Shown: positions 37,848 to 43,637 of the stretch, one piece after another
How the letters are laid out: the number at the start of each line of letters is the position of its first letter
Numbering within the stretch: the stretch's first letter is position 1
Source of the DNA: Hyphomicrobiales bacterium
GTDB taxonomy: Bacteria; Pseudomonadota; Alphaproteobacteria; Rhizobiales; Aestuariivirgaceae
NCBI GenBank assembly: GCA_025359265.1
Contig: JANYHB010000028.1
Coordinates: 1 to 44,093 of the forward strand
Reading direction: 5' to 3'
Length of the DNA: 44,093 nt
The notes under the pieces: generated by a model
What the model was told of the DNA's origin: nothing
The model's database searches: none
Seen by the model: the letters and a program-made list of their open reading frames with translations, nothing else
Position numbers and translations under genes: made by a program

Positions 37848-39125
37848 ATGAATTTAACCACAATGCAGCGCGCGGATTTCGAAACTTCAACCTTGGCCAA
37901 TCAAAAGTTTCGGGAACAGCCATCCCAAAACGTCCCGCCTGTATGGGGCTTGGCACGGATTGCACGCATGGCATACGAAGGCAAAGATCTGGAACCATTG
38001 TTCGGCAGTTTGCAAAATAGGTTGCGGTATAATCCACAAGACACCAATGCCCTTTTAGACAGTGCGTTCGTTCTTTTCGTCAGAGGTTACTGTGAACTGG
38101 CCCTGCGCGCACAAAAAACTGCTGCGCAAACTCAAAAAGCCTTCACCGTTCGCTTTGGCGATGGCTCGGATATCAATTTAGTGGCGTTGGTGCGTGTAGG
38201 AGACTTGATGGCCAACACGCCAATAGAGTTTTTGCTGGAAGGAACCAACGCTGAACTCACCTACTATTTCATTGACGAAGAGACTTCCGACCTAGACCAA
38301 ATTCCTGATCACGACGCAGCCTTTCTGGCCGTCGGTCAATCCAGGGAAAATGAATTGACCCTCAAAAATGTGGAGAGGCTCATAAAAGTCTGGCACAAGC
38401 CCTTGATCAATGGCAACCCCGAACGTATTCGCAATTTAACCCGCGAGGGCGTTTCCGCTTCGCTTGCATCGCAATCAACAGTGATCACGCCACCTTGCTG
38501 CATATTTTCTAAGGCTGATTTAGCTGCGCAAATTTTTGGCGGTCCAGTTGCGGGTGTCAATTCTTCGGGATTAAAATATCCGTTAATCGCGCGTCCGGTA
38601 GGAACACATGCGGGCAAAGGCATGCAAAGAATTGAATGTTCGCAAGACATGAGCTTATATCTTGCGCAAAATGACGCCCCCTCCTTTTATGTCTCGCCCT
38701 ATGTGGATTATCGCAGTCCTGACGGATATTTTCGAAAGCAGCGCATTGTATTCATCAAGGGCCAGCCATTTCCCTGTCATCAAGCAACTTCCAAAAATTG
38801 GATGGTTCATTATTTAAACGCCGACATGGAACAATTTGAGGATCGTCGCCGCGACGAAGCGGATTGGTTTGAAAACTTTCCCATTTTTGTTAGGCAGCAC
38901 AAAAAAGCTTTTGAGAAATTGTTTGAAATAATTGGCTTGGATTATTTTGGCATAGACTGCGCCGAATCGAAAGATGGCAGGCTTCTTGTTTTCGAAGTGG
39001 ATGTGGCAATGATTGTGCATTCACTCGACTCCGAAACCGTGTTTCCTTACAAAAAACCAGCGATGAAGCGATTGCAGGATGGATTTCTTGGTCTTTTGCG
39101 CGATAGCCGCGCATTTTCAAAATAA
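37848..39125 (+). CDS. TPR-like/ATP-grasp domain protein of unknown substrate
   Basis: A 425-residue protein without signal peptide. Residues 30-95 form a helical repeat region resembling TPR/Sel1 units (LQNRLRYNPQDTNALLDSAFVLFVRGY). Residues 180-400 look like an ATP-grasp ligase: YPLIARPVGTHAGKGMQRI (244-262) resembles the nucleotide-binding loop, and the acidic residues Asp370 and Glu383-Val-Asp385 (VFEVD) sit where metal ligands are expected. ATP-grasp enzymes join a carboxylate to an amine, often on peptides. The third ligand is Asp instead of the usual Asn. It lies 123 bases after fliI and 580 bases before a second ATP-grasp gene. Substrate and any link to motility are unknown. Confidence 0.75.
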   Translation: MNLTTMQRADFETSTLANQKFREQPSQNVPPVWGLARIARMAYEGKDLEPLFGSLQNRLRYNPQDTNALLDSAFVLFVRGYCELALRAQKTAAQTQKAFTVRFGDGSDINLVALVRVGDLMANTPIEFLLEGTNAELTYYFIDEETSDLDQIPDHDAAFLAVGQSRENELTLKNVERLIKVWHKPLINGNPERIRNLTREGVSASLASQSTVITPPCCIFSKADLAAQIFGGPVAGVNSSGLKYPLIARPVGTHAGKGMQRIECSQDMSLYLAQNDAPSFYVSPYVDYRSPDGYFRKQRIVFIKGQPFPCHQATSKNWMVHYLNADMEQFEDRRRDEADWFENFPIFVRQHKKAFEKLFEIIGLDYFGIDCAESKDGRLLVFEVDVAMIVHSLDSETVFPYKKPAMKRLQDGFLGLLRDSRAFSK

Positions 39126-39462
39126 ATGTCGGTCAAGCTGGTTTTGATAATTGAGGTTGCCTCAGCAAAGCCCAAATATGAGGTTGAGGCTAAGGTTATT
39201 GCTCAAATAATATGCAGAAAAACAAACTCACTTGCCCAATAATACTCAACATTCTCGAGTGTGGGAGTGGCGTAACGCGTCCATCCTGCTGAATGGCACT
39301 CTAGCCTTCTCTTGAAATTGTCGCTTGCTGCTGCTTTTTTAACTATTGCATTGCACAAAAAATTTGCCCCACGAGGGCGGTTTTAGTTTCCGCACCAAAC
39401 AATAAATCAACTTAGTTTCATTAAAACAATACATTGGCAGACAACTGACCAAGTACTGCGGG
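39126..39462. other. Intergenic region after the TPR/ATP-grasp gene
   Basis: No coding frame with support. A weak hairpin GCCC-CACGA-GGGC (39366-39378) has T-rich sequence on both sides (GGTTTTAGTTT on plus; six T on minus at 39357-39362) and could be a poor bidirectional terminator. The promoter for the candidate small RNA or for the downstream operon should lie toward the right end; I could not assign a sigma-70 promoter. Confidence 0.4.
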
Positions 39463-39464
39463 TT

Positions 39465-39619
39465 GGCATTGAATTTGCAGCGTGTGGTGTGTCGCACAAA
39501 CTGCATTTGATTCCTCCCATGGCAAATTCAATGTGCACTGGCTTGGTGGAAAACGCTTACGTCTCCAGCCATCTTGGGGGATGGGCCTGCTTCGTTGCCG
39601 GCTCATCCCCTCTTTTTTT
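39465..39619 (+). ncRNA. Candidate small RNA or leader RNA with intrinsic terminator
   Basis: Three stems occur in a row. Stem 1 pairs CATTGAATTTGC (39467-39478) with GCAAATTCAATG (39522-39533), a perfect 12-bp match; its 43-base loop carries CCTCCC (39513-39518), an anti-Shine-Dalgarno motif. Stem 2 pairs GGCTTGG (39540-39546) with CCAGCC (39565-39570), one bulge. Stem 3 is the intrinsic terminator. This is the layout of trans-acting small RNAs of alphaproteobacteria that block ribosome sites with CCUCC loops. It could instead be an attenuator leader for the ATP-grasp operon at 39706. The ends, strand and expression are inferred. Confidence 0.55.
39577..39619 (+). terminator. Strong intrinsic terminator
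   Basis: An 11-bp stem, 39577-39587 with 39600-39610 (one G-U pair), with a 12-base loop, followed by seven T at 39613-39619. It lies 86 bases upstream of the ATP-grasp operon and in the same direction, so it ends a transcript that starts inside the gap or reads through from the previous gene. Confidence 0.85.
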
Positions 39620-39705
39620 GGGGCGGTTTCGCTTGCTACAATGTGGCACCACGCTTGCATCTGTCTTGAAAAACGGCTTTTGATCAAGCGTGAGGAAAAG
39701 TTTTA

Positions 39706-41115
39706 ATGTCGTTCAATGAAATGCTGGGGCCGGATGGCAAGGTGCGCGAACCCTACGCAAAAGTTGCAACGTGGCTCCAGCGATTGGGCCCCCATGATAT
39801 TGAGCGCGCCTTGCGTGAAAGCGAAGCGCGCTTTCGCAGGCAAGGCATCACGTTTGCGGTTTATGGCGATGGCCAAGCATCTGAACGCATAATCCCGTTC
39901 GACATCGTCCCGCGCATTTTTGCGGCCCAGGAGTGGCGCAGGCTCTCAGCAGGCATAGAACAGCGCGTGCGGGCGATAAATGCCTTCCTGCATGATATCT
40001 ATCATAGACAGGAAATTCTTCGCGCCGGGCGGATACCAGAAGCGGTGATTGTTCAGAACGAGGCATTTGTGTCTGAGATGGTGGGGGTAAATCCTGCCAA
40101 GGGTATTTACGCTCACGTCATGGGCATCGATATTGTGCGTGTGGGTGTGAACGATTTCTATGTGTTAGAAGATAATTGCCGCACACCTTCGGGCGTCTCA
40201 TATATGTTGGAAGACCGCGAAGCGATGATGCACTTGTTTCCCGAGTTATTCTCGGCCCAACGCGTTGCACCAGTCGAAAATTATCCTGCCATGTTGCATA
40301 AAACGCTTACGGCAGTGGCACCTGCTTCAGCTGGTGAAGAGCCCGTTATTGTGGTGCTTACGCCGGGAATTCATAACTCGGCCTTCTTCGAGCACGCATT
40401 TCTGGCCGATGAAATGGGCGTGGAGTTATGCGAAGGCTCTGACCTTTTCGTCTCGGATGGTTGGCTGTATATGCGCACCACCCAAGAGCCAAAGCGTGTT
40501 GATGTTGTCTATCGCCGCATTGATGATGCTTATTTAGATCCACTCTCATTCAGGCCAGATTCGAATCTTGGCGTTCCCGGCATTCTTGATATTTACCGTG
40601 CCGGCAGGGTAACCCTTGTAAACGCCCCAGGAACCGGTGTTGCAGACGATAAATCGATCTATACCTTCATGCCGGATATAATTGAATTTTATACAGGTGA
40701 AAAGCCATTGCTCAGCAACGTGCCAACCTGGCGCTGTTCCCAACCGCAAGATCTGAAATATGTCACCGAACATCTCAGTGAACTTGTCGTGAAAGAAGTT
40801 CACGGTTCCGGCGGATACGGCATGTTGGTGGGGCCAACCTCAACCAAGGAGCAAATTGAAACTTTTCGGGGCAAATTACTGGCAAAACCCTCAAATTATA
40901 TTGCACAACCCACCTTGGCGCTTTCCACTGTGCCTACATTTGTAAAATCCGGGGTCGCCCCGCGCCATGTCGATCTGCGCCCGTTTGTGCTTTCGGGCGA
41001 CCTTGTGCGTATCACCCGCGGTGGCCTCACACGCGTGGCCTTGCAGGAAGGCTCATTGGTGGTCAACTCCAGCCAGGGCGGTGGCACGAAGGACACGTGG
41101 GTGTTGGAGGACTGA
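39706..41115 (+). CDS. Circularly permuted type 2 ATP-grasp protein
   Basis: A 469-residue protein of the DUF404/DUF407 family. Diagnostic segments: FDIVPRIFAAQEWRRLSAGIEQRVRAINAFLHDIYH (about 66-103), the ATP-grasp loop VVKEVHGSGGYGMLVGP (about 362-378), and the C-terminal RPFVLSGDLVRITRGGLTRVAL. Such proteins are predicted to ligate amino acids or peptides using ATP. It heads a tight operon with an alpha-E protein, a transglutaminase-like protein and Anbu, an association known in many proteobacteria and linked to predicted peptide synthesis or tagging. GAGGAAA precedes the start. Confidence 0.92.
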   Translation: MSFNEMLGPDGKVREPYAKVATWLQRLGPHDIERALRESEARFRRQGITFAVYGDGQASERIIPFDIVPRIFAAQEWRRLSAGIEQRVRAINAFLHDIYHRQEILRAGRIPEAVIVQNEAFVSEMVGVNPAKGIYAHVMGIDIVRVGVNDFYVLEDNCRTPSGVSYMLEDREAMMHLFPELFSAQRVAPVENYPAMLHKTLTAVAPASAGEEPVIVVLTPGIHNSAFFEHAFLADEMGVELCEGSDLFVSDGWLYMRTTQEPKRVDVVYRRIDDAYLDPLSFRPDSNLGVPGILDIYRAGRVTLVNAPGTGVADDKSIYTFMPDIIEFYTGEKPLLSNVPTWRCSQPQDLKYVTEHLSELVVKEVHGSGGYGMLVGPTSTKEQIETFRGKLLAKPSNYIAQPTLALSTVPTFVKSGVAPRHVDLRPFVLSGDLVRITRGGLTRVALQEGSLVVNSSQGGGTKDTWVLED

Positions 41116-41117
41116 CC

Positions 41118-42068
41118 ATGCTCGGAAGAACGGCCTCATCACTGTTCTGGATGTCTCGATATGTTGAGCGCGCTGAAAACATGTCACGGTTGTTGGAAGT
41201 GGGTTACCGCATTTCTTTGATGCCCGGTGCGGTGGAGGGCCACCGCGACGAATGGCAATCCACCTTGGCAAGTGCCGCATGCTTGCAGAGCTATAAAGCA
41301 AAACACAAAGAGGTTGATGGCCCAAACGTCATTCACTTTCTGCTCTTCGACGAAGACAATACCTCTAGCGTTAAGTTTTGCCTCAGGGCCGCGCGCAACA
41401 ATGGTCGCGCCGTTCGCACGGCTCTCACGCGTGACGTGTGGGAGAGCTTGAATTCCACCTGGAATGAGCTGGCACAAATTGATCCTACCACCATCACACC
41501 AGACCGTCTGCCCAGTTTCTTGGATTGGGTAAAACAAAAGGCCATGGCATTTCGCGGCGCGTTGCTGGGCACAATGTTGCGCAATGATCCTTATTATTTC
41601 AGCCAGCTTGGCAACTTCATCGAACGTGCAGACAACACCGCACGTATTCTGGACGTGAAATATTTTATTCTTTTGCCGCAACCCAGTGATGTGGGCAGTG
41701 AATTGGACGCGCAACAATGGGCGCAAGTTCTGCGTTCAGTTTCAGCACACCGTGCTTATCGATGGTTCTATAAAGATAGTCGCTATAAGCCCTGGCTGGT
41801 GTCAGAGTTTCTCATCTTGAAAGAAGAAATGCCGCGCTCGCTGTTGTTTACCTATAATTGGATTAATCTTGCGCTCAATGATCTAGGCGCCCTTTACGGC
41901 CAACGCTATGAATGTCACACTCTGGCGCAGACCACGCATGAGCAGCTGAAAAGTGGAAATATGGAACACATTTTCCAAGGCGGGCTACATGAATTCTTAC
42001 AATGGTTCATGTGGAAAAATAACGCCCTGTCGGAATCGATTTCCAAGACCTATAACTTTCCATTATGA
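41118..42068 (+). CDS. Alpha-E domain protein (DUF403)
   Basis: A 316-residue, all-helical protein starting MLGRTASSLFWMSRYVERAENMSRLLEVGYR, the signature of the alpha-E family. The ATG at 41118 is 2 bases after the stop of the ATP-grasp gene; a GTG-like upstream extension to 41097 is unlikely. Other family stretches are LGTMLRNDPYYFSQLGNFIERADNTARILDVKYF and LNDLGALYGQRYECH. Alpha-E proteins are nearly always encoded next to type 2 ATP-grasp proteins and probably form a complex with them. No catalytic motif is known. Confidence 0.92.
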   Translation: MLGRTASSLFWMSRYVERAENMSRLLEVGYRISLMPGAVEGHRDEWQSTLASAACLQSYKAKHKEVDGPNVIHFLLFDEDNTSSVKFCLRAARNNGRAVRTALTRDVWESLNSTWNELAQIDPTTITPDRLPSFLDWVKQKAMAFRGALLGTMLRNDPYYFSQLGNFIERADNTARILDVKYFILLPQPSDVGSELDAQQWAQVLRSVSAHRAYRWFYKDSRYKPWLVSEFLILKEEMPRSLLFTYNWINLALNDLGALYGQRYECHTLAQTTHEQLKSGNMEHIFQGGLHEFLQWFMWKNNALSESISKTYNFPL

Positions 42069-42877
42069 CCATGCGCCTCCACGTTCGCCATGCTACACAT
42101 TTTGAATATGACACGGCAGTGGATTATGCCGTGCAACGGTTTTTGCTTTCACCATTGAATTTTGCGTCGCAACGCGTTGTGAACTGGAAAATAACGGCAC
42201 CGGGCATGGAAAAGTCGTTGGTTTACAGCGACGGTTTTGGAAATAAAGTGCATGTTGCAAGTTTGGCCAATCATAGCGGGCCGATGAACGTCATCGCAGA
42301 GGGAGTGGTTGAGTGCGACGATGCGCAGGGCATGGTAAAAGGTCTGTCCGAAATTACGCCTCAGGCGGTTTATTTGCGCCAGTCGGCTTTTACCGCGCCC
42401 AGCGAGGCGATGCTGCGCTTGGTTGTTCCTCTCTCTGGGGCTGGCGACACACTCACATTCCTTCATGATTTAATGCAGCAAATCCACCAAAATGTTGAAT
42501 ATCAAACGGGCACAACAGACGCCAAAACAACGGCGGGGCAGGCTTTTGCTGCCGGCAGCGGTGTTTGCCAGGACCATACCCATATTTTTATCGGTATCAC
42601 TCGCGCAATGAAATTTCCCTCGCGCTATGTCACGGGCTATTTGGTAACGGGCACCGGGGCTTCTTCCACTGCGGCACACGCATGGGCCGAAGTGTCAGTT
42701 CCAGATCTCGGCTGGGTGGGTTTTGATGTTGCCAATTGCCTTTGCCCCACAGATCAATATGTTCGCATTGCAGCGGGCATTGATGCCGCCAGCATAACGC
42801 CCATCCGAGGCTCGCGCCGCGGAGGGGTGGTTGAAACCATGACAGTTGAAGTTAAGGTTGAAATCGCTCAACAGTAA
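42065..42877 (+). CDS. Transglutaminase-like cysteine peptidase family protein
   Basis: A 270-residue protein with an N-terminal beta domain (DUF2126/Bact_transglu_N type, MRLHVRHATHFEYDTAVDYAVQRFLLSP) and a transglutaminase-like core. The catalytic triad is visible: Cys168 in GSGVCQDHTHIF, His205 in AHAWAEV and Asp221 in VGFDVANCL. It may act as a peptidase or amidase on the product of the ATP-grasp ligase. The ATGA overlap with the alpha-E gene shows coupling. No signal peptide, so cytoplasmic. Confidence 0.93.
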   Translation: MTMRLHVRHATHFEYDTAVDYAVQRFLLSPLNFASQRVVNWKITAPGMEKSLVYSDGFGNKVHVASLANHSGPMNVIAEGVVECDDAQGMVKGLSEITPQAVYLRQSAFTAPSEAMLRLVVPLSGAGDTLTFLHDLMQQIHQNVEYQTGTTDAKTTAGQAFAAGSGVCQDHTHIFIGITRAMKFPSRYVTGYLVTGTGASSTAAHAWAEVSVPDLGWVGFDVANCLCPTDQYVRIAAGIDAASITPIRGSRRGGVVETMTVEVKVEIAQQ

Positions 42878-42902
42878 TCAGAGTGATTCTGGGGAATTGG
42901 AA

Positions 42903-43637
42903 ATGACCTATTGCGTGGGAATGTTGCTTGATGAAGGGCTGGTGATGGCCGCCGACACGCGCACCAACGCCGGCATGGATAGCGTTGGAAAATTCAAAAA
43001 ACTGCACTGCTGGTCAAATCCGGGTAGAGGCGTTTTCACTTTGCTAACGGCGGGCAATTTGGCTGCCACTCAGGCCGTGGTCAGCCTGATCAGCGAACAC
43101 GCAAGCCCCACCAAATTGAAAGACCAAGATAATATATTCGCCGCTAAAACCATGTTTCAGGCCGCCCGCATCTTAGGCCGCGCCATTCGCGCCGTCCGCA
43201 AGATTGAAGATGAACAACTGGGTGCCAGGGCAGATGCCTTTTCTGCGAGTTTTATTTTTGGTGGGCAGATAGGCAAAGAAATTCCGCGCTTGTTCCAAAT
43301 TTATACGGAAGGTAACTTTATTGAAGCAACGTCAGACACCCCGTTTTTCCAAATCGGCGAACATAAATACGGCAAACCAATTTTAGACCGTGTTGCGCGC
43401 AATGACATGAAACTGGGTGATGCGGCCAAGATGGTACTGCTGTCTTTCGATTCTACACTCCGTTCAAACCTCAGCGTTGGCTTGCCAATTGACATGCTGA
43501 CCTACGAAACCGGCGCGCTGAAGTTTGAACACACCAAACGCATTGGGCCCGATGACCCGTATTTCAAAATGCTGTCTATGGAGTGGTCAAAAGCCTTGCG
43601 CAATGCCTTTGCCCAGATTGAGGCTTTTGATATCTAG
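42903..43637 (+). CDS. Anbu, proteasome-related peptidase
   Basis: A 244-residue protein from the ATG at 42903, with GGAATTGG before it; an open frame from 42846 overlaps the previous gene and would hide the catalytic Thr. After loss of Met the N-terminal nucleophile is Thr1 (MTYCVGMLLDEGLVMAADTRTNAG), with Asp17 and the FKK lysine pair at about 31-32 in mature numbering, as in proteasome beta subunits and HslV. Anbu forms self-compartmentalised particles with no known ATPase partner. Its usual neighbours are exactly the three genes upstream. Confidence 0.94.
   Translation: MTYCVGMLLDEGLVMAADTRTNAGMDSVGKFKKLHCWSNPGRGVFTLLTAGNLAATQAVVSLISEHASPTKLKDQDNIFAAKTMFQAARILGRAIRAVRKIEDEQLGARADAFSASFIFGGQIGKEIPRLFQIYTEGNFIEATSDTPFFQIGEHKYGKPILDRVARNDMKLGDAAKMVLLSFDSTLRSNLSVGLPIDMLTYETGALKFEHTKRIGPDDPYFKMLSMEWSKALRNAFAQIEAFDI

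Follow-up and report, generated by a model that had tools for sequence, protein, structure and literature searches.

A predicted NtrC/sigma-54-controlled anti-Shine-Dalgarno small RNA gene next to an Anbu operon in a genus of Hyphomicrobiales

A putative nitrogen-controlled small RNA gene

The gap upstream of a proteasome-family (Anbu-type) operon in a Hyphomicrobiales genome probably contains a gene for a trans-acting anti-Shine-Dalgarno RNA that would be activated by NtrC and sigma-54, would work in the manner of MmgR or NfeR1, and matches no Rfam family. The window analysed here is the whole 44,093-nt stretch of DNA from this genome (G000); the gap occupies positions 39126-39705 and ends just before the ATG at 39706. 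The promoter, an upstream site, the spacing, the seed and the terminator are kept in five genomes, as comparison of their sequences demonstrates; we infer transcription, dependence on NtrC, use of Hfq, repression and target identity. The first-pass annotation of this gap had pointed out a perfect 12-bp inverted repeat, a 43-base loop with CCTCCC and a terminator with seven T, all of which are present where it had placed them. The small RNA gene that it proposed is retained as a gene standing alone, which carries an anti-Shine-Dalgarno loop, ends in a strong terminator and is found again in four other genomes, but its anatomy is different, and the sigma-54/NtrC nitrogen-control promoter was missed. 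The features discussed below are as follows.

39200-39216, no strand assigned: NtrC-type box TGCTCAAATAATATGCA, 263 nt upstream of the sigma-54 element; profile rank 1 of 44,077 window positions
39330-39340, plus strand: GCTGCTTTTTT block, also present in G015, altered in G026 and G005, absent at that place in G033
39352-39368, no strand assigned: conserved NtrC-type box TGCACAAAAAATTTGCC, 111 nt upstream of the sigma-54 element; profile rank 2 of 44,077
39463-39479, plus strand: predicted sigma-54 promoter TTGGCATTGAATTTGCA, with GG at 39465-39466 and GC at 39477-39478; contains the 5' arm of the repeat (39467-39478)
39490-39619, plus strand: predicted small RNA of about 130 nt, its start placed 12 nt after the -12 C
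39494-39536, plus strand: hairpin 1, GCACA...UGUGC, predicted by folding, bears the seed
39512-39520, plus strand: anti-Shine-Dalgarno seed UCCUCCCAU (CCUCCC at 39513-39518), invariant in five sequences
39539-39571, plus strand: hairpin 2, predicted by folding, with counterparts made of other pairs predicted in G033, G015, G026 and G005
39576-39619, plus strand: intrinsic terminator (stem 39576-39611, seven T 39613-39619), found by thermodynamic folding
39654-39658, plus strand: CTTGC, located after the RNA terminator and probably the -35 element of a promoter that belongs to the Anbu operon itself
39706-43637, plus strand: neighbouring operon (CP-ATP-grasp, Alpha-E, transglutaminase and proteasome-family (Anbu-type) subunit), outside the RNA gene

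Under nitrogen shortage, phosphorylated NtrC would bind the TGC-N11-GC boxes located about 110 and about 260 nt upstream and, by looping, would activate sigma-54 RNA polymerase at 39463-39479. The resulting RNA of about 130 nt would begin near 39490 and end with the terminator at 39619. Through its exposed UCCUCCCAU loop, and probably with the help of Hfq, it would pair with chosen mRNAs at their Shine-Dalgarno regions and lower their translation. It is the anatomy of the promoter that suggests nitrogen control.

Search for family members

A DNA similarity search produced matches at E values up to 1 in 34 of 61 genomes; outside G000, only the match in G033 was strong (2.6e-29, the next being 0.013), with 80% identity over window positions 39463-39618, and the 12 other match loci that were inspected showed no continuing similarity by eye. 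An exact 23-base pattern was found in a single record (PLXI01000143.1, Hyphomicrobiales MAG palsa_927) of a genome contig collection that may leave out the source genome itself or very near ones, and a 21-base pattern had no match in viral contigs.

A covariance model (R1) was built from the G000 and G033 sequences starting at 39488, so that the sigma-54 element lies outside it. Among the 37 genomes of the genus, 10 had a match at E up to 1, and five of these are members of the family. The matches in G015 (E 0.003), G026 (0.09) and G005 (0.3) are weak and are considered real because each has an upstream sigma-54 element, a feature outside the model. The matches in G024, G004, G021, G027 and G010, with neither a sigma-54 element within 60 nt nor CCTCC, were rejected. 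The recognised carriers, five of the 37 genomes, represent about three lineages, with G000/G033 and G026/G005 forming two similar pairs in the small, five-sequence RNA alignment; recognition is limited to R1 matches at E up to 1, and members with higher E values could be missed. A model built from all five sequences (R2) and applied to 63 of 191 loci recovered the five known members and one chance antisense match (E 0.38).

In 397 genomes of the order, apparently without G033, R1 had matches at E up to 1 in 10, with only G000 strong. The nine others all lack the promoter and were rejected; three of them have CCTCC, in one case (L129) before a terminator. This locus (G309, positions 1501-1574) is a weak model match of about 74 nt with GCUUCCUCCCAAGG, a strong terminator and no sigma-54 element within 60 nt; it may encode a further anti-Shine-Dalgarno RNA, which might belong to the alpha-R8 kind.

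The Rfam search suggested by the first-pass annotation matched no family at the gathering level over the whole window (0 matches). At E up to 1, the G000 gap had one chance eukaryotic match, and at E up to 5 the loci of the four relatives had six matches, all far below gathering and none on the RNA.

Promoter and upstream NtrC-type boxes

Sigma-54 promoters have -24/-12 elements of the form GG-N10-GC, with the consensus TTGGC...TTGC. The GG and GC boxes are described in an excerpt of PMC4842269. The element at 39463-39479 has this spacing and the TTGGC...TTGC form, and rpoN is encoded in 34 of the 37 genus genomes, including all five RNA carriers. All five members contain such an element, which reads CTGGCACGATGCTTGCG in G015, TTGGCCCGGCGTTTGCA in G026 and GTGGCCCGGCCTTTGCA in G005, directly upstream of the RNA in each; GCACA always follows the -12 C at exactly 16 nt, and CCTCCCAT at 35 nt. 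In the alignment of G000 and G033, sliding identity reveals TTGGCATTGAATTTGCA and TTGGCATCGGATTTGCT, respectively, as an island amid otherwise divergent sequence, and all three differences between them affect positions that are free or W in the sigma-54 element.

The motif by itself is not rare and is no proof of a promoter. In particular, YTGGCA-N6-TTGCW occurs at 23 sites in the 2.65-Mb G000 genome (2 for the reversed pattern), 21 of which overlap an ORF of at least 80 aa, and the sigma-54 pattern with one mismatch occurs 11 times in the window (8.2 expected). The two exact window matches to TGGCA-N6-TTGCW (39464-39479 and 39643-39659) are both in this gap, with 0.84 expected and at least 2 found in 21 of 100 shuffles. 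The second of these, GTGGCACCACGCTTGCA before the ATP-grasp gene, was considered as a sigma-54 promoter of the Anbu operon and is not counted as such because G033 lacks the GG and the match ends where other genomes have the operon's CTTGC.

The NtrC motif has the form TGC-N11-GCA according to a passage of PMC10746234. A profile was derived from 23 boxes of this type from 19 genomes, sought at -110 to -185 of 28 glnK upstream regions; a GlnK query had a match in all 37 genus genomes. G000 and G033 were left out of the training set, which includes the glnK boxes of G026 and G005 and none from the RNA loci. The top two positions of the window by this profile, at 39200 (20.0 bits) and 39352 (14.5 bits), are both in the gap. 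No counterpart of the box at 39200-39216 was seen at the same distance in G033. A profile site is located 110-114 nt upstream of the sigma-54 element in all five members and is the best of about 3 kb in four of them and the second best in G000; the G033 box is the best position in its 8-kb locus. These sites, of the TGC-N11-GCA type as in glnK promoters, score 14.5, 16.2, 9.3, 14.0 and 15.3, the third value being that of G015, where the site is weak and its right half is not GC; the right end reads GCC in G000 and GCG in G033. In four of the five members, GCTGCTTTTTT or a near form precedes the site.

An exact NtrC-type pattern, composed after such boxes had been seen, has 11 distinct sites in G000, including the box at 39200-39216. 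Among the eight of these loci that were read, only this gap and glnK are not covered by an ORF of at least 100 aa, and a third site lies at the edge of an ORF, before an acyl-CoA-ligase-like ORF (named by eye). Locus L106 (G000:C9:19382-19398) has an NtrC-type box and then GTGGCATTTATTTTGCT before an acyl-CoA-ligase-like ORF (named by eye), and is possibly another member of the nitrogen regulon. The pattern TTGCA-N9-TTGC has no match in the window, and TGC-N-W9-N-GC with one mismatch has 14 sites there (10.6 expected). A sigma-54-type match, TGGCA[C/T]G-N4-TTGA, is present in 14 of 30 glnK upstream regions (loci L131-L160), and all 14 of these promoters read TTGA, not TTGC, that is, GA for GC at -12.

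G000 has eight matches to sigma-54 activators, three of them strong: NtrC (662 bits, cut-off 559) and NtrX (712 bits, cut-off 600), both of which pass the curated cut-offs, and L094, which stays below the cut-off of each of the 25 best NCBIfam models listed. With three strong candidates at hand, the gene could be a real sigma-54-dependent RNA gene whose activator is NtrX or the third protein, not NtrC; this appears unlikely given that the boxes match those before glnK in the same genus.

Structure of the predicted RNA

The perfect 12-bp arms CATTGAATTTGC (39467-39478) and GCAAATTCAATG (39522-39533) enclose a 43-base loop within which CCTCCC is located at 39513-39518. Of 150 versions of the gap with shuffled dinucleotides, 2 contained a perfect repeat of at least 12 bp (loop 3-60); the repeat is thus unusual, and its origin by chance is not impossible. 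Positions 39465-39625 fold at -62 kcal/mol against a shuffle mean of -50.2 (z -3.1), better than all 200 dinucleotide shuffles, and the best fold uses the repeat. The first-pass annotation treated the 12-bp stem as part of an RNA of about 155 bases, which would start from an upstream sigma-70 promoter, with the repeat as its first stem. We regard this as very unlikely. The 5' arm is inside the -24/-12 promoter and so should not be transcribed, and the long repeat is present only in G000, the longest such repeat in the same stretch being 6, 4, 5 and 5 bp in G033, G015, G026 and G005. The promoter, by contrast, is conserved along with its spacing; the length would thus be about 130, not 155. The G000-G033 changes that leave the sigma-54 element intact, read as RNA stem changes, break one pair (C-A) and turn one into G-U in G033 with no compensation, and the best fold of G033 does not use this stem. 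The sole sigma-70-like site in a simple consensus scan of 38900-40000, at 39184-39211, is about the number expected by chance (1.3); the same scan listed two other terminators (1.8 expected) and not that of the RNA.

The predicted transcript of about 130 nt (39490-39619) has a fold z-score of -3.8 in G000 and -5.0 in G033, and the other members have -4.2, -6.1 and -4.1. The five members agree without exception in GCACA close to the 5' end, in the UUUG that precedes the loop, in UCCUCCCAU and in most of the terminator core. The CCUCC seed is mostly unpaired in the folds of all five; in G000 and G033, a weak 2-bp stem involves its first two C. The pairing in hairpins 1 and 2 differs among the members, and the structure there is therefore weakly supported.

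Pair changes are clear in the terminator only, and not by every control. In the alignment of the terminator alone, 43 of 43 cells pair and three cells are changed on both sides; one pair is A-U in three members and G-C in two. Out of 500 shuffles, 20 reached the observed values for cells paired, for cells changed on both sides and for the covariation score, whereas 149 did so for pairs changed on both sides and 397 for pair types. With slides of +2 and +3 the covariation scores are similar, yet only 71% of cells are paired. In the comparison with relatives that had been proposed for the stems, the terminator is conserved, with an A-U to G-C compensatory change, and the 12-bp stem is not.

Genomic context

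The terminator ends 86 bases before the ATG of the downstream operon (39706), as noted in the first-pass annotation, and in G033 too the RNA precedes the ATP-grasp gene (91% identity), which is followed by Alpha-E and transglutaminase ORFs identified by eye. This proximity underlies the alternative suggested there, a transcription attenuator that controls the ATP-grasp/Anbu operon, and equally a role as the operon's leader. Either role is very unlikely: in G015, G026 and G005 (loci of about 3 kb), the RNA is located between a class I/II aminotransferase gene in the same direction and a convergent MarC gene. Furthermore, the ATP-grasp gene is present in 28 of 37 genus genomes, and CTTGC is found at -47 to -65, near the start codon, in 22 of the 24 operon upstream regions examined, G000 and G033 included; outside G000 and G033, R2 detected no RNA copy in any of the 22 operon loci. 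The two genomic settings, the operon's own CTTGC element and the 22 operon loci without the RNA argue for an independent, stand-alone gene found in two places, not an operon leader. That the region is a small protein gene, or an arrangement that arose by chance, is hardly credible: although ORFs of 74 and 64 aa (plus strand) and 88 aa (minus strand) overlap it, there are one-base gaps inside it between G000 and G033, and the promoter spacing is constant in five members.

Further upstream, G000 has flagellar genes, and a 425-aa ORF (37848-39125) that matches nothing in Pfam or NCBIfam separates a flagellar-type ATPase gene from the RNA gap; G033 has HhH-GPD and impB/mucB/samB repair genes.

Several NtrC-type boxes are found before the Anbu operon itself, in G022 (L054, 22.0), G034 (L043, 15.8), G027 (L056, 14.6) and G015 (L039, 13.6), 97-123 nt before the first gene; these are the four of 22 other genus members that reach 13.5, a score reached at one position of the window outside the gap. 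The Anbu operon may be nitrogen-controlled in part of the genus. Upregulation of Anbu in nitrogen-limited Pseudomonas putida is mentioned in a passage of PMC5666114, citing Hervas 2008, and fits the neighbourhood of the RNA gene.

Predicted function and targets

The CU-rich seed can pair with the Shine-Dalgarno sequence, and anti-Shine-Dalgarno loops are described as typical of alphaproteobacterial regulators in parts of PMC7143759, PMC10746234 and PMC12559287. The target pattern TGGGAGGAA occurs 11 times in G000 and 12 times in G033, with the RNA's own complement among the sites in both. Some of the sites precede ORF starts; by eye, these ORFs include one for a LacI-type regulator in G000 and, in G033, one for a Gfo/Idh-type oxidoreductase. 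A simple exact-match search found no target mRNA common to the two genomes.

The 3' tail of 16S rRNA is UUGGAUCACCUCC, and the loop sequence in G015, G026 and G005 is UUUGGAUCCUCCC. A far-reaching and unlikely possibility is that this is a new family of nitrogen-emergency RNAs whose loop mimics the 16S rRNA tail and would act as a broad translation brake, and which joined the Anbu operon in G000 and G033 so that slowed synthesis and protein turnover would answer the same nitrogen signal.

The predicted gene adds to the Hyphomicrobiales an RNA family absent from Rfam that, within one genus, combines a predicted sigma-54/NtrC promoter with an anti-Shine-Dalgarno loop, and would be a second, separate example of an anti-Shine-Dalgarno RNA under (predicted) nitrogen control. 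Its start site, boxes and neighbouring operon provide a concrete link for asking whether the poorly understood Anbu operon joins the nitrogen response.

Comparison with known RNAs

No description of this RNA was recognised in the open-licence papers searched. RpoN-type motifs before other rhizobial small RNAs have been reported (PMC7143759, in part), so the kind of regulator is known. The RNA described here shares its alphaproteobacterial distribution, a CU-rich anti-Shine-Dalgarno core and an intrinsic terminator with MmgR/alpha-R8 of Sinorhizobium meliloti (SisA-D of Caulobacter), the transcription of which is given as NtrC-induced, with an RpoN motif listed beside an RpoD motif, in sections of PMC7143759, PMC8401924 and PMC12559287. 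However, MmgR is 77 nt long, compared to about 130 here, the neighbours differ, and the 10-nt alpha-R8 core UUUCCUCCCU (PMC12559287, in part) is absent from the members, which carry AUUCCUCCCA or GAUCCUCCCA in a hairpin loop. MmgR is described, in the excerpts, as partly homologous to Rfam suhB (RF00519), and this family had no match up to E 1 in the G000 gap or up to E 5 in the four other loci.

With NfeR1/alpha-r14, the common features are the CCUCC anti-Shine-Dalgarno loop and the link, predicted in the present case, to NtrBC (PMC10746234, in part). NfeR1, which NtrC represses, has three CCUCCUCCC loops and a sigma-70 promoter, whereas here there is one loop and a predicted sigma-54 promoter with presumed activation; the three CCUCCUCCC hairpins of alpha-r14 are not found, the G000 RNA containing a single CCUCCC. 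AbcR1/2 (alpha-r15) are, like the RNA here, three-stem RNAs with anti-Shine-Dalgarno motifs, 114-120 nt in length (PMC7143759, in part). They are set apart by their description, with two motifs and tandem genes beside lsrB, from the RNA here, which has no Rfam match. Finally, NrsZ of Pseudomonas aeruginosa is made by NtrB/C and RpoN under nitrogen limitation, as an excerpt of PMC9308961 relates and as is predicted for the RNA here, and differs from the latter as a processed RNA of 226 nt with the motif ACAGGCAG that activates rhlA.
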